A DNA stretch of 64,000 nucleotides, taken from a bacterium HR17. Lineage in GTDB: Bacteria; Armatimonadota; Fervidibacteria; Fervidibacterales; Fervidibacteraceae. The notes under the pieces were generated by a model that saw only the letters and a list, made by a program, of their open reading frames with translations, was not told the DNA's origin and did no database searches. Location: NCBI GenBank assembly GCA_002898575.1, contig BEHT01000004.1:1-64000 (forward strand). The letters are read 5' to 3'. Position 1 is the first letter of the stretch, and each line of letters opens with the position of its first letter. Positions 16,651-23,835 of the stretch are shown piece by piece. A program made the translations under genes and the position numbers.

Positions 16651-17940
16651 TTATGCGTGGATGCCGTTGCCATTCATTTCTTCAGGACAACGCTGATGGC
16701 GGACATGGAACTCGAAGTCTGCTGGAGCGATGCGGAGCGCTGAGAGCAACGGGTTGGGTGCGGTGTCGCCCAAAAGACAGAAGCAGTTACCGACCATCTG
16801 TTTGCCGACACTTTGCAGCAACTCAATGTCTTCAGGGCGTGCATGTCCATTGTGGAAGCGTTCCAACACTTTGACAAGCCAATAAGTGCCTTCGCGGCAC
16901 GGCGTGCATTTGCCGCAGGATTCACGCATGTAAAACTTCGTCAACCGCAGCGCCACTTTGACCATACAGGTGCCCTCAGCGATGACAACAACCGCAGCGG
17001 ACCCCGCGAAGGAACCTGCTGCCATGATGGACTCAAAGTCCATTGTCACTTTCAACGCTGTCTCCCGGTCAAACATCGGTGCCGATGAACCGCCGGGGAT
17101 GACCGCTTTGATTTCTCGCTCACCTACGACGCCGCCGGCATACTCAATTAAGTCCCGTAGGGCGATATTAAGCGGGAACTCGTAAACGCCAGGGCGATTG
17201 ACGTGCCCACTGACAGCAAACAGACGGGTGCCGGGGCTGCGTTCTGTGCCCCACTGCCGATACCATTGCGGACCGTTGAGGATGATAGGCGGGACACGGG
17301 CTAAAGTTTCGGCGTTGTTGATGACGGTCGGTTGTCCGAAAGCCCCTTTAACGGCGGGAAACGGCGGGCGCATGCGGGGCTCACCCCGATTGCCCTCCAG
17401 CGATTCTAACAGCGCCGTCTCCTCACCACAAATGTAAGCGCCTGCCCCCCGATGCAGCACGATGTCACAGGAAAAGTTACTGCCTGCGATGTTCTTGCCT
17501 GCAAAGCCGCGTTCGTAGGCTTGCTGAATGGCACAGCGCATGATGTGATAGGCTTTGCCAAATTCACCTCGTAGGTAAACGAACACTTTTTCGGCTTGGA
17601 TGGCGTAAGCAGCGATGAGTGCACCTTCAAGGATAGCGTGGGGGTCGTTCTCCAAAATAAGGCGGTCTTTGAAAGTGCCCGGCTCGCTTTCGTCGCAATT
17701 GACGCAGATGAACTTGGGGAAGATGTTTTTGGGCACGAAACTCCATTTGACTCCTGTCGGGAAACCGGCACCGCCGCAGCCGCGTAATCCCGACGCTTTC
17801 ACGACTTCAATCACTTCGTCGGGTGTCATATCCGTGACAACTTTGCGCAGCGCTTTGTAGCCGTCGTGCTCCATATAAACGGCGATGTCTGTGCTGTTTG
17901 GAATTCCGACGCGTCGCTTAACGATCAGCACTTCCTGCAT
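16651..17940 (-). CDS. nuoF: NADH-quinone oxidoreductase subunit F
   Basis: This 429-residue subunit binds NADH and FMN and starts electron flow in complex I. Motifs seen: SGLRGCGGAGFPTGVKWSF (NADH/FMN loop, about 50-68, with Cys where Arg is most common), GAGAYICGEETALLESLEG, and the N3 cluster ESCGKCTPCREG with the fourth Cys in GNCFCLLGD. ATG 17940 has GAGGGGTGA upstream; a GTG three codons earlier sits too close to it. The gene is isolated: nuoE lies 11 kb upstream and nuoG 7.5 kb downstream, with opposite-strand genes between. It therefore needs its own promoter, possibly in 17941-18078. Confidence 0.96.
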   Translation of the reverse strand: MQEVLIVKRRVGIPNSTDIAVYMEHDGYKALRKVVTDMTPDEVIEVVKASGLRGCGGAGFPTGVKWSFVPKNIFPKFICVNCDESEPGTFKDRLILENDPHAILEGALIAAYAIQAEKVFVYLRGEFGKAYHIMRCAIQQAYERGFAGKNIAGSNFSCDIVLHRGAGAYICGEETALLESLEGNRGEPRMRPPFPAVKGAFGQPTVINNAETLARVPPIILNGPQWYRQWGTERSPGTRLFAVSGHVNRPGVYEFPLNIALRDLIEYAGGVVGEREIKAVIPGGSSAPMFDRETALKVTMDFESIMAAGSFAGSAAVVVIAEGTCMVKVALRLTKFYMRESCGKCTPCREGTYWLVKVLERFHNGHARPEDIELLQSVGKQMVGNCFCLLGDTAPNPLLSALRIAPADFEFHVRHQRCPEEMNGNGIHA

Positions 17941-17987
17941 GAGCGTCACCCCTCATCTTTCAGTGCGTCGCTTCCGCTTTTGTTCTC

Positions 17988-18016
17988 TTTACATGCTCCT
18001 ATGATTAGGTTATAAT
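17988..18016 (+). promoter_or_regulatory. Sigma-70-type promoter of the DNA methyltransferase gene
   Basis: TTTACA at 17988-17993, a 17-bp spacer, and a perfect TATAAT at 18011-18016. The methyltransferase start is about 60 bp further on. Transcription would begin near 18023, inside the 38-bp repeat. The hexamers also overlap the upstream region of divergent nuoF. Confidence 0.7.
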
Positions 18017-18018
18017 GG

Positions 18019-18056
18019 TAACAGCATTAGAGCCAAAAGGCAATGGCGCGAGAAGT
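18019..18056. repeat. 38-bp direct repeat, left copy, bounding the restriction-modification module
   Basis: It matches 20343-20380 at 32 of 38 positions in the same orientation, with the core AAAAGGCAATG identical. It lies just after the -10 box of the methyltransferase promoter. The two copies enclose exactly the methyltransferase and endonuclease genes. Confidence 0.8.
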
Positions 18057-18078
18057 TTTTGTTTTGAGGTGAAAAGAG

Positions 18079-19446
18079 TTGGCGGAATCTGAATCGCTAT
18101 TCATCGTGCGGGAAACGGCACAACCCTACCTTTTTGCCCCTAAACCGTTGGTGACCGCCCATCCGTTGGATGTGTCCAAGTTGGGCACCTTTCAAGATTG
18201 CCTGCGGGCGCCGGTGCATCGCTGGTTTAAGTATCCGGCTGGCTTTAGTTACAAACTTGTGGAAACACTGATAGACGAGTTTCGGCTGAACCACACTCAT
18301 TGGATTTTAGACCCCTTTGTTGGCTGTGGGACAGTGAATGTTGTTGCAAAACTAAGGGGTGTCAACGCTGTCGGTATTGAAATCCACCCTTTCGTGCATT
18401 GGGTCGCAAAGGTGAAATGCTTCTGGGAATTTGATATGGAGCGGCTTCGTCGTGATTTGATGGAATTGCTGCGAACGGTTCGCCAACCACCGGACAATGT
18501 CTTGCAGGAGCAGGACTTGAGCGAGTTCCCGGAATTGGTTCACAAATGCTTCTCTGAACAAAATCTGAGGAAACTTAAATTTGTGCGAGATACCATCAAT
18601 GCTTTTGACCTCACGCCTCAAGAGCGTGACCTGTTTTTGTTAGCTTTGGCGGATACTTTGCGAACGGCGACGAGAGCAGGCGCGGGCTGGCCTTACATCG
18701 CGCCGTCAGAATATCACGAAAAGCGGGAACGCGATGCTATCTCTGTTTTCTGTGAAACAACGCAGATGTTTTTCCAAGACTTACTGGAGGTTCGTTCGGC
18801 GCAAGCGAAAGTGGAAGTCACCTGTAAGTTGCTCCTACAGGATGCCCGTGAAACCTATCCACTAAGTGATGAATGTGTGGATTTAGTTGTTACATCGCCA
18901 CCCTACTTAAATAATTACGATTACGCTGACCGAACCCGTTTAGAACTTTACTTTTTCGGCTGGGCAAAGTCGTGGCGCGACATAACAGAACAAATTCGCG
19001 ACCGTCTTATTGTCGCTGCCACGACACAAGTGAGACGCACTGAATTTAGTACTGAACCACTGAGTCCCCAACTGCGTGACCTTTCCCACATTGTTTATTC
19101 GCAACTGCGGGACAAAGTGACACAATTAGAGCGAATGAGAAGGCTTAAGGGTGGCAAAAAGAGTTATGACTTAATGGTGGCAGGTTACTTCAATGACATG
19201 GTAAAAGTGCTGTATCAAGTTTATCGTGTGCTCAAGAGCGGGGCACCGCTTGTGTTAGTGCTGGGTGATAGTGCACCTTACGGCATCCATATCCCGACCG
19301 ACCGCTACTTAGGTGAACTGGCATTGGGTTTAGGCTTTCGTCGTTACACGATTCAAACCCTACGCCAACGCGGTGGAAAATGGCGGGATAACCCCCAGCG
19401 GCACAAAGTTCCACTGCGTGAGGTTATCTTAACGGTCTGGAAGTGA
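18079..19446 (+). CDS. Site-specific DNA methyltransferase (restriction-modification system)
   Basis: The 455-residue protein carries the AdoMet-binding motif DPFVGCGTVNVVAKLRG at about 78 and the catalytic motif TSPPYLNNYDYADRT at about 272. The SPPY form is common in N4-cytosine and some N6-adenine enzymes, so the methylated base is not decided. The order, AdoMet site first and SPPY later, with about 190 residues between, leaves room for a recognition region. TTG 18079 is used as start because GAGGTG lies 7 nt upstream; no better ATG exists. The endonuclease gene follows after 7 bp, and a good promoter precedes it. Confidence 0.88.
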   Translation: MAESESLFIVRETAQPYLFAPKPLVTAHPLDVSKLGTFQDCLRAPVHRWFKYPAGFSYKLVETLIDEFRLNHTHWILDPFVGCGTVNVVAKLRGVNAVGIEIHPFVHWVAKVKCFWEFDMERLRRDLMELLRTVRQPPDNVLQEQDLSEFPELVHKCFSEQNLRKLKFVRDTINAFDLTPQERDLFLLALADTLRTATRAGAGWPYIAPSEYHEKRERDAISVFCETTQMFFQDLLEVRSAQAKVEVTCKLLLQDARETYPLSDECVDLVVTSPPYLNNYDYADRTRLELYFFGWAKSWRDITEQIRDRLIVAATTQVRRTEFSTEPLSPQLRDLSHIVYSQLRDKVTQLERMRRLKGGKKSYDLMVAGYFNDMVKVLYQVYRVLKSGAPLVLVLGDSAPYGIHIPTDRYLGELALGLGFRRYTIQTLRQRGGKWRDNPQRHKVPLREVILTVWK

Positions 19447-19453
19447 TGGACTC

Positions 19454-20264
19454 ATGGCGATGGAAGTTGCTAACCCTGGCAGCGCTTTGAGCGAAGCCAT
19501 TGGTAGCCTTCTGGAGGCGGAAATTCATCGCCTTTTGCGCCCTATTGCTGAACAGTATGGAGCAATTTATGTCACTACGCCTAAGCAACTGAATGAAAAA
19601 AAAACGTAGGAAACTGATTCTGACCGACCAAGACGGCAATGACTACGAAGTGGATGCAGTCATTGTCAACAGGCGTTTTCAACCTCTGGTTCTATTAGAA
19701 TCCAAATACATCCGCTACAAAAAACACAACCGTGATAAAGCCAGTTGGATTTGCACGGCCCACACAAAACTGAAGCAGAAGTTTCCAACAGTGCGCTGTT
19801 CTATCGCTGTGCTGATGGGCAGCTGGAGCAAACCGTCTAAGCGACTTTTAACAAGTTTTGGCGTCACACTTTTTGAAATCGGCTTTGATCGCATCTGCGA
19901 TATTTTGTCGCAATTTGGTGTCAACTACCGATGGTCAGAGAAAGACAGACAGGCAGCGATGGAAGCGTGGCGTCGGTTTAATATGCTCAATGAAGAAGAT
20001 AAAATCCAAATTGCTAAGACGCTTATCGCTGACATCTCAGCAAAATTACAAGAAGCGTTAAAACAAGCCTTGGACGAAAGCACACCTCGTCGTGTGCAGA
20101 AGGTAACAGTGTTCGTGAGCACTAACCGAGGCGAGAGTTTCATTTTCACTTTTAACTCTGTTCAGCAAGCTACTCTGTTCCTTCGCGAATTTGATGAGAC
20201 AATTCATCTGGACACAACCAGAGCCCCCACTCTCATTAAGCCATCACCAGAAAAGCGTGAATGA
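19454..20264 (+). pseudogene. Restriction endonuclease gene split by a frameshift at an A9 run (PD-(D/E)XK type)
   Basis: ATG 19454 opens a 51-codon frame (ALSEAIGSLLEAEIHRLLRP) that stops at TAG 19607. The rest of the protein continues in the +1 frame from the A9 run at 19596-19604 to 20264. Removing one A joins both parts into about 269 residues. The joined product shows Asp67 in YEVDAVIV and Glu82-x-Lys84 in LVLLESKYIRYKK, the PD-(D/E)XK nuclease pattern, followed by a helical C-terminal half. Position right after the methyltransferase supports a restriction enzyme. Switching by A8/A9 length change, transcriptional slippage, true decay, or a read error are all possible. A second ATG at 19593 could only give a truncated protein lacking the N-terminal helix. 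Confidence 0.7.
19596..19604. repeat. A9 homopolymer at the endonuclease frameshift
   Basis: Nine A residues sit exactly where the two reading frames of the endonuclease meet. Eight would give one continuous frame. Runs of this length are prone to replication and transcription slippage. Confidence 0.85.
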
Positions 20265-20342
20265 CCAACACAAGTGAGAATATGGCACGCACGATTAGCC
20301 GAAAGGAGTGGAGGAGCAACTAGTGCGGGTGAATGACAATTG

Positions 20343-20380
20343 TAACAACATCAGAGCAAAAAGGCAATGTCGCAATAAGT
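20343..20380. repeat. 38-bp direct repeat, right copy
   Basis: Partner of 18019-18056, with 32 of 38 bases identical. At the place aligned to the left copy's TATAAT it has GACAAT, so the promoter is not conserved. It lies 79 bp after the endonuclease stop and 68 bp before the next glycosidase gene. Confidence 0.8.
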
Positions 20381-20448: not shown

Positions 20449-23400
20449 ATGGGGATCATAAGCATCCTCGTTAGCTTTTTGATTTCGCTGCCAAATAGTG
20501 TTGCCGCATTAGAGGTAGCGTCAAGGGTTGTGGAAAGTTTTGACTGGTGCGCCTGGGATTCTGTGTGGAGCAAAGCGGCGGGACAGGTCTCAATTGTTGG
20601 CGAACATTCCCCTGACCTGCCCGATGGCAAAAGCATGTGCATTGAAGTTCACTTCTCCAGCAGAGGTTTTGAGTGGTTCTCTGTCAAGCCCTCTAAGCCA
20701 ATTTGGATTCCCGGTGAAGCGAAAAGTGTCACCGTTCGCTACAAAGTTAACTCAACAGGTTACACGATCGCTCTGGAATTCCTTGACGGATGGGGAAGGG
20801 CGGAGGTTAACGGGAGACGGCTAAGTTGGGTTTTGCCAGTGAAAACCGTCGGTCAATGGCAAACCGAAACTTTCGCCGTTCCAAACGATTGGCGTCGCCC
20901 CATCGCTATCGCTGGCTTGAATATCCACAACTGGGACAGGCAAAGTGAAGCCTTTACCTTGACCGTCCTGATTGACCAAATTGAAGTTAAAACGGACTTG
21001 TCGGCGACCGACCTGCAAACGGGTTTGCCAAAATCTTGGCGCCCTGCCCCTAACGAGAGGGACGGAAGGAAACTCCAACCACCACCTGTTTCGCTTCTAC
21101 GAACCGAACTGACGAGTTCTGCAGCGAACCATGTTTTTGCTGGCGAAAAACCGACCATCGTTTTCAGGCTTTGGGATTGGCTGTCGCAACCGAGGCATGG
21201 AAAGATTGACTTGAAAGTCTTTGATTTCGCTGGCAAAGAAGTATTCAGCGAGCAACGAACGGTAAATCCGTCTGGCTACATTGAAGAGGCTTTCGCGCTC
21301 CCTTTGAAGCGCTTTGGCTGGTATCAAGCGAAAGCGACCTTGACAATTAGCGATGGAACGGAACGCTCCGAGCAACTTGCATTCGCCTTCATCCCACCAC
21401 CGCGAGAGTTGACAGAAATTGAAAAATTGGTTTCACCTTACGGGTTGAATGTTCATGGCGGGCGCGAGAGGTTGGCAATTGAAACTTTTCGCAAGGTTGG
21501 AATCGTTTGGTTCCGTGACTATGCCTTCGGCTTTGAAACCATGAAGCAGGCGAAAGGCGATGGTCGATTTGACGGTTGGCCTTGGTATCACCAACTCTTA
21601 TGGCGTTACCAAAAGGCAGGGGCAAAATTGCTCGCTTGTTTGCAAGGTGCTATCAAGCGACCAAAGATACAAGATGGGAAATTGTCAAGCGACATCGGTC
21701 CAGATTTGGATTGGCGCCATGAAATAGCAACGATTATCGCTGCCTTTCCGCAAATTACTCACTGGGAACTTGACAACGAGTATGACTTCCCGCAGGAGAA
21801 CAGGAACGCAGAAGAGCAGATCAATTGGGCTAACTATCGGGTGTTTCACAAAGCATTTGCTGAAATAGTTGACGCAATTGGTGGTGGGACCTTAGTAGCC
21901 GTTGAACAAGGGCAGGCGGGAATTTTTCCCGATCGCATCAAGCCGTGCGTTGAGAGCGGAGATTTTGAGCGCATCAAAGTTGTCAATGTCCATCACTACT
22001 GCGGTGCCGATGCGCCTGAACTGAACATCGTGAATTTCAATCCAGCCGAAGGCGTAAGCCGAGAAGTGCGTTTGTTCTTTGATTTGCTTCGTGAGGCTAA
22101 GCAGACATCCATAAGTGACAAAAAGCAACGACAACTTTGGCTGACCGAGTTTGGTTGGGACACCCTTGCAGGTCATGTCGTTTCGCCCTTTGAGCAAGCA
22201 GTTTACCTGCAACGAGGTTGGCTTTTAGCCCTTGCTGCGGGGGTTGACAAAGCCTTTTGGTTCTACGACTTTGACTCTCCTGAGCCAAAGCAGTTTTTTG
22301 ACGGTTGTGGGCTTTTGACCGCTGACGGTCAACCAAAACTCGCTCTTTGCGCTCTTGCTGCCTTGACCAACATGCTCCCAACACCCCGATACATTGGCGA
22401 CTGCAATGCTGGTGCAGGCACACAAGGTTTCGTCTTTGAGACCGATGGCAAATTGGTGGCAGTTTTGTGGTCAGTTGAGAGAGATGTCGGTCCCGTTGTC
22501 AACTTTGAGTCGGGACAACTTTACGATTTCCTCGCCAATCCCCTTGACAATAGAACTCAAAGGCTCAGCCGAGCACCTATCTTCGCTGTCGGAATTTCCC
22601 GTGATGACCGCTGGTTCAAACAAACGGCTTACAGCCTTGACACTCCACAACTTACCGTCGCTGCTGCAGGTGACAATTTCCCAATTCGCGTTCAAATTCT
22701 CAACAATCGCAATCGCGAAATAAACGCAACGGTGCGTGTCGTCGCACCAAAAAGCTGGCTCGTTGACAGGTTGGAAGCAAATGTCAAGGTTCCAGTGAAC
22801 TCTCAAGCGAATGTTGCCTTTAATGTCACTGTTGCACAGGGCGAACCCGAAGGTTTCCGCGAAGTACTTGTTGTTGCCGAGGAGAACGGTCAAAGGTTGA
22901 AAGAGATGAGAGCGAAAGTGTTGATCACAAAGCCAGTGACTCTCAAAGTTTTTCCGATTGAAGGCGAGCCTGGACAAACGAAAGTCAAAGTCCAAGTTGC
23001 AAACAATTCGCTCCGAACCCTTAAAGGCGTCTTGCGATTTCTGTTGCCGAAGTCTTGGCAGGTCATCCCGAACTCGGTGAACATTGAGGAATTAAAACCC
23101 AGTGAAATAAGAGAGATTGCTGTTAACCTGACATGGTCACCCGAGTGGCAGTTAGGCGAAAGCGCCCAAGTGATTTTTGGGACACTTGAACGGGCAATCG
23201 CTTCTGAGTTTATGGTCCCGCCGATTTTTCAAGTTCACAGGGCACCAAAAGTTGAACTTGACGGAAAGTTAAACGAGTGGGGCGAAAAATGGGCCGTTCC
23301 TTTTTGGTTGCTCCGATCAACTTTCGGCGAACCCAATGTCCGTCTGTTTTTGGCTTGGTCGTCAGAAGGACTTTATATCGCAACGGAAGTCCGCAATTCA

Positions 23401-23835
23401 ATTGTCAAGGTGTCTGACCCAAGAAGTTTTTGGACGGGTGATTGCATTGAATTGTTCGTTGACACCCGCAATGATAAGCGACCTCGTTCCTTTGAACCCG
23501 GCGATCATCAGTTTTGGTTTGTGCCTTTAGTTGATGAAGGGCGTGTTTATGTCGGACAGTGGAAGCGGGGAAACGAAATCCCGCAGACCCTCTATGACTT
23601 ACCTGAAATCAAAAGCGCTGCAAGGAAAACGAACGATGGATACATCGTTGAAGTTTTGCTGCCGACAAAATACCTTCACGGCTTCAAACCACAAGTTGGA
23701 GCAAAACTCGGCTTAAACATCAACTTGACAATTCATAGTGAACGGGGTGCACGAGAAGTTTACTGGCACCGTCAAAAAGATTTGGGCGTTCTGCGCTCGC
23801 CACACCTTTGGGGCACAGTGGAGTTGTTTGATTAA
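20449..23835 (+). CDS. Secreted glycosidase-like protein with GH-A core and C-terminal CBM9-like domain
   Basis: The 1128-residue protein has a signal peptide (MGIISILVSFLISLPNSVAA). A beta-sandwich follows (to about 185), then a TIM-barrel from about 320 with YGLNVHGGRERLAIETFRKV. The likely acid/base is Glu444 in WELDNEYDF and the likely nucleophile Glu567 in WLTEFGWDT, as in clan GH-A (GH5/GH39-like). Two Ig-like beta domains and a CBM9/DOMON-like module (about 928-1127) opening VELDGKLNEWGE complete it. ATG 20449 follows AAGGAG with an 8-nt spacer; the in-frame ATG 15 codons upstream has no such site. Base composition is AT-richer than the nuo genes around it. Substrate is not identifiable by eye. 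Confidence 0.78.
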   Translation: MGIISILVSFLISLPNSVAALEVASRVVESFDWCAWDSVWSKAAGQVSIVGEHSPDLPDGKSMCIEVHFSSRGFEWFSVKPSKPIWIPGEAKSVTVRYKVNSTGYTIALEFLDGWGRAEVNGRRLSWVLPVKTVGQWQTETFAVPNDWRRPIAIAGLNIHNWDRQSEAFTLTVLIDQIEVKTDLSATDLQTGLPKSWRPAPNERDGRKLQPPPVSLLRTELTSSAANHVFAGEKPTIVFRLWDWLSQPRHGKIDLKVFDFAGKEVFSEQRTVNPSGYIEEAFALPLKRFGWYQAKATLTISDGTERSEQLAFAFIPPPRELTEIEKLVSPYGLNVHGGRERLAIETFRKVGIVWFRDYAFGFETMKQAKGDGRFDGWPWYHQLLWRYQKAGAKLLACLQGAIKRPKIQDGKLSSDIGPDLDWRHEIATIIAAFPQITHWELDNEYDFPQENRNAEEQINWANYRVFHKAFAEIVDAIGGGTLVAVEQGQAGIFPDRIKPCVESGDFERIKVVNVHHYCGADAPELNIVNFNPAEGVSREVRLFFDLLREAKQTSISDKKQRQLWLTEFGWDTLAGHVVSPFEQAVYLQRGWLLALAAGVDKAFWFYDFDSPEPKQFFDGCGLLTADGQPKLALCALAALTNMLPTPRYIGDCNAGAGTQGFVFETDGKLVAVLWSVERDVGPVVNFESGQLYDFLANPLDNRTQRLSRAPIFAVGISRDDRWFKQTAYSLDTPQLTVAAAGDNFPIRVQILNNRNREINATVRVVAPKSWLVDRLEANVKVPVNSQANVAFNVTVAQGEPEGFREVLVVAEENGQRLKEMRAKVLITKPVTLKVFPIEGEPGQTKVKVQVANNSLRTLKGVLRFLLPKSWQVIPNSVNIEELKPSEIREIAVNLTWSPEWQLGESAQVIFGTLERAIASEFMVPPIFQVHRAPKVELDGKLNEWGEKWAVPFWLLRSTFGEPNVRLFLAWSSEGLYIATEVRNSIVKVSDPRSFWTGDCIELFVDTRNDKRPRSFEPGDHQFWFVPLVDEGRVYVGQWKRGNEIPQTLYDLPEIKSAARKTNDGYIVEVLLPTKYLHGFKPQVGAKLGLNINLTIHSERGAREVYWHRQKDLGVLRSPHLWGTVELFD

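Follow-up and report, generated by a model that had tools for sequence, protein, structure and literature searches.

How did a restriction–modification (R-M) gene pair come to lie between two copies of one short sequence in a genome of the Armatimonadota, at a locus with no transposase? In the window, by which we mean the whole stretch of 64,000 nucleotides of bacterium HR17 DNA that was analysed, a type II DNA methyltransferase gene and a type II restriction endonuclease gene stand between nuoF and a gene for a secreted glycosidase-like protein (Table 1). The initial annotation had read the arrangement as a self-contained insertion, marked by a duplicated stretch of target sequence.

The gene pair and its direct repeat

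The methyltransferase and endonuclease genes lie side by side, as in type II R-M systems, and the endonuclease frame is broken. Homologues of the methyltransferase that are 43–65% identical occur in Chloroflexota, cyanobacteria, Planctomycetota and Armatimonadota, and the endonuclease homologues adjoining a methyltransferase have one uninterrupted frame. Because these homologues read through where a run of nine A residues breaks the frame in the window, the endonuclease copy would be dead, slippage-dependent or mis-assembled, and owing to this frameshift the enzyme is probably off or made only by slippage. The run itself may be an assembly error, or a site of slippage or phase switching.

The annotated 38-bp direct repeat was confirmed, with 32/38 identical positions (18019–18056 and 20343–20380), and could be extended to 43 bp with 36/43 identical positions in the same direction (18014–18056 and 20338–20380). 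The copies enclose exactly the two R-M genes, as had been stated, the endonuclease gene being frameshifted. Shuffles of the window gave 0 matches to the shared repeat pattern, and BLAST within the genome returned the pair with an E-value of about 2e-6. Of 750 random 2.2-kb intervals, none had flanks scoring 29 or more against each other, the value obtained for the repeat. A search for more genomic copies, which had been proposed as a check, gave a mixed answer: BLAST of the 3.15-Mb assembly found no third close copy, and more diverged relatives are present, dispersed through the genome.

Table 1 Features of the R-M locus and its neighbours (window coordinates).
Feature	Position	Strand	Remarks
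nuoF, NADH dehydrogenase subunit F-like, left neighbour	16651..17949	-	Complex1_51K, NADH_4Fe-4S
Left copy, assigned as ~74-bp IS5-family left end	17986..18059	+	Outer terminus 18059; predicted promoter outward into methyltransferase gene; repeat core 18014-18056
Predicted outward sigma-70-type promoter, TTTACA-17-TATAAT	17988..18016	+	11/12 match; predicted function
Putative IS outer terminus (terminal inverted repeat)	18047..18059	-	Minus strand reads AAACTTCTCGCG...; corresponds to 13-bp TIR of L084
Type II DNA methyltransferase	18079..19446	+	N6_N4_Mtase, PADLOC type II; motif DPFVGCGT then TSPPY; TTG start
Type II restriction endonuclease gene	19454..20264	+	Frame broken at A9 run 19596-19604
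Right repeat copy	20338..20380	+	Assigned as truncated IS5-family left end; without -35 half
Secreted glycosidase-like protein with CBM9 domain, right neighbour	20449..23835	+	Longer ORF from 20404

Identity of the repeat and its relatives

Among 291 genomes of the phylum, the sole other good match to the repeat lies at G017:C36:312–354, in a genome (G017) from another bacterial family. There the sequence forms the left end of an intact insertion sequence (IS), and the transposase gene starts about 12 bp further inward. This transposase matches the Pfam family DDE_Tnp_4 well above the cut-off, and its NCBIfam IS5 match falls under the curated cut-off. A perfect 13-bp terminal inverted repeat (TIR) closes both ends of the element (309–321 and 1375–1387 of locus L084), and one arm coincides with the end of our repeat. 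The left copy region, 17985–18065, is 80% identical to this left end over about 82 bp, a stretch that takes in the -35 and -10 elements and their 17-bp spacing. The left copy also matches the IS-end model with 64 bits and has 1 mismatch among the 12 terminal bases of the TIR; a TTGCGC core is common to the ends of related IS5-family transposase elements. On these sequence comparisons the repeat is identified as the left end of an IS5-family insertion sequence, consisting of the TIR and an outward sigma-70 promoter. An anonymous repeat is now replaced by an identified one.

The predicted promoter, TTTACA-17-TATAAT, ranks first among the promoter-like sites of the window. The same layout is present in G017:C36 and C7, and near versions occur in G017:C9 and in the genome of HR17 itself (G000:C54). 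Its predicted transcript would start within the left copy, 50–60 bases 5' of the methyltransferase start, in agreement with the annotated overlap between this copy and the probable transcription start of the gene. The left copy thus probably supplies the methyltransferase promoter. The right copy retains the terminus and the -10 region and lacks the -35 region, and no plus-strand promoter was listed there. An inward promoter-like site, TTGCCT-17-TACAAT, is found in the right copy (window 20367–20339, minus strand) and is matched by TTGCCT-17-TACCAT in the left copy and in G017. This inward site is probably the promoter of the IS transposase, and in the left copy it would face nuoF.

The copies sit at a fixed spacing after the -10 element, which would suit an operator or leader-RNA element co-regulating the R-M genes with the glycosidase gene. 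Such a role is nevertheless very improbable, as the IS end is patchily distributed (in G017, absent from its congener G030), the sequence runs on into transposase genes, and neither an Rfam family nor an unusually stable fold was found. A common leader RNA was rejected on the latter two results.

A profile was built from both window copies, the G017 copy and four weaker matches, and the genome-wide counts given here rest on searches with it. At E ≤ 0.5 the profile gave 11 matches in the genome of HR17, 14 in its congener (G002) and 4 in G017, the seven strongest being the training sequences themselves and the remaining ones new, compared with 0–2 matches in each of 34 other genomes. In G017:C10 and G002:C44 the same end lies directly before transposase remnants, at the same position and with scores far above those of shuffles, and a short possible transposase remnant lies beside the IS end at G000:C54. 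The congener also carries a separate left-end subfamily (L145, L171, L164 and L158) with a TTTCAT -35 and a TAAAAT -10, some members having transposase starts attached. The initial annotation had named a common genome-wide motif as a finding that would speak against its reading; this is in part what was found, since the repeat belongs to a dispersed family of IS5-family left ends.

By our count, 10 of the 13 readable solo left ends in the three genomes point into a gene start. Within this small sample (n = 13), the orientation suggests that IS left ends are kept as promoters, their activity being predicted. The two window copies might then derive from two independent IS insertions, each decayed to a solo left end that was kept as a promoter, one for the methyltransferase gene and one for the glycosidase gene, with the R-M pair merely lying between them. 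The solo ends elsewhere in the HR17 genome and its relatives, like the mobile promoters and IS outward promoters already known (PMC9208149), lend this reading some weight. However, we estimate that about six copies spread over 3.15 Mb would place two within 2.3 kb about 0.02 times by expectation, and the right copy lacks a -35 element. Independent insertions are accordingly considered unlikely.

Origin of the two copies

The observed arrangement consists of two fossil IS left ends in the same orientation, one on either side of the R-M gene pair. No complete IS or transposase was found at the window locus, and the term remnant is therefore used rather than IS. No transposase trace was found adjoining either copy, and nothing above shuffles was detected for the missing IS right end beside either copy or for IS homology upstream of the 43 bp of the right copy. 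No transposase of this IS5-type family remains anywhere in the HR17 genome, for which reason the element is called extinct there.

These results bear on a decayed composite, in which the R-M pair would have come to lie between two direct copies of an IS5-family element that both lost their transposase and right end. The two copies belong to one subfamily, point the same way and form the sole close pair in the genome, and IS-flanked as well as IS1- and IS5-linked movement is documented for R-M genes (PMC3031569). It is weakened by the right copy, beside which neither a right end nor a transposase remnant was found and no IS homology extends past the 43 bp, and by the loss of every transposase of the family from the genome. 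Composite transposons have IS copies at both ends with the outer ends intact, whereas left-end fragments only were found here. We regard this origin as rather unlikely.

Homologous modules were compared for bounding repeats. Direct repeats enclose 3 of 18 homologous modules, or 3 of 26 when more distant ones are included, as against 0 of 750 random intervals. The three repeat-bounded modules, the window one included, are flanked by three unrelated sequences, namely a hemL end, a pilin-like gene end and the IS5 end. In Microcoleus sp. FACHB-1515, the 3' end of hemL, 305 bp, is directly repeated at 93% identity on either side of a convergent methyltransferase/endonuclease pair (L068, 5528–5832 and 8229–8526), an arrangement that has the appearance of a textbook long target duplication. 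In G046:C71, the R-M pair is flanked by a 122-bp repeat, 86% identical, in which the end of a pilin-like gene is present together with its terminator (L173, 3467–3587 and 6431–6551). This repeat could instead stem from neighbouring paralogous pilin-like genes, and no empty site for the module was found in the congener of G046. None of the 16 loci with homologous modules or flanks carries the IS end, which would therefore be local sequence and not a part of the module; the repeat as an intrinsic module part was rejected, as homologous modules lack it. The R-M genes and the IS end were both searched for in viral contigs and phages, where neither was found, and in plasmids, where only distant ones were found.

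The route we favour, unproven and just short of an even chance, is insertion of the R-M pair into a pre-existing IS end with duplication of the target. An ancient IS5-family element would have occupied the space between nuoF and the glycosidase gene, which are divergent, and would have been reduced by decay to its left end. The methyltransferase–endonuclease pair would then have inserted into the decayed end, duplicating about 43 bp of target. The left copy would have kept the whole promoter and would now initiate methyltransferase–endonuclease transcription, and the right copy, left with only the part that runs from the -10 element as far as the terminus, would have drifted. This route calls for a single insertion of the IS and a single one of the module. 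Two observations agree with it: IS homology is lost just upstream of the right copy, and homologous modules are bounded by direct repeats of differing sequence.

Two features of the copies count against target duplication. The left and right copies differ at 7/43 positions, and the left copy agrees with the IS terminus 3 bp beyond the point where the right copy stops. The left copy differs from the G017 copy at 5/43 positions (38/43 identical), so that a copy from another bacterial family is at least as close to it as the right copy is. There is therefore no sign of recent duplication; a duplication, if any, would date far back, and the right copy would have drifted since. As to the initial annotation, its view that the R-M genes are delimited by a repeat associated with mobile DNA is upheld, and its plain target sequence gives way to an IS end with a predicted promoter. 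The target duplication that it proposed gains support at the level of the module family and is unproven at the window locus.

Empty sites were sought in related genomes. The nuoF locus of the same family and the nearest glycosidase homologue carry no repeat copy, but their surroundings differ, and no syntenic empty site was found. The nuoF homologue in G003, 81% identical, sits between other genes, the G002 sequence ends within nuoF, and no close glycosidase homologue was found within the genus. In the same-family genome G003 (C19; L081, 9204–10016), a gene pair judged by eye to be of the HEPN/nucleotidyltransferase type separates nuoE from nuoF, so that there too a small two-gene module appears to have entered upstream of nuoF.

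Relation to known systems

Nobusato et al. (2000) are said to have reported R-M genes that duplicate a long stretch of their target on insertion. For R-M genes, target duplications that are long and of variable length are on record (PMC3874152). The window locus resembles such insertions in that directly repeated local sequence bounds the unit, that there is no transposase, and that homologous modules are bounded by other sequences; unlike them, its repeat is an assigned IS end, only 43 bp long and 84% identical. IS-flanked R-M systems, in which IS5 is among the elements shown to take part (PMC3031569), likewise have their R-M genes flanked on both sides by IS copies in direct orientation, whereas only end fragments, without transposase and without right ends, are present here. 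As with IS outward and mobile promoters (PMC9208149), an outward -35/-10 pair in an IS left end lies upstream of unrelated genes, but the ends here are fossils and not whole elements, and their promoter activity is predicted. Each ingredient is already known, and their combination in this genus adds a new instance.

One locus thereby joins three known themes: IS ends as portable promoters, transposase-free movement of R-M genes, and direct repeats that recur around a single R-M family. The repeat-bounded modules (3/26, against 0/750 controls) form a tractable set for testing insertion with long target duplication. A wider picture, possible but doubtful at present, is that IS5-family elements now extinct in this genus of the Armatimonadota persist through their left ends, with transposase and right end gone, as dispersed, ready-made promoters, and that incoming modules such as R-M pairs may gain expression by inserting into, and duplicating, such an end.
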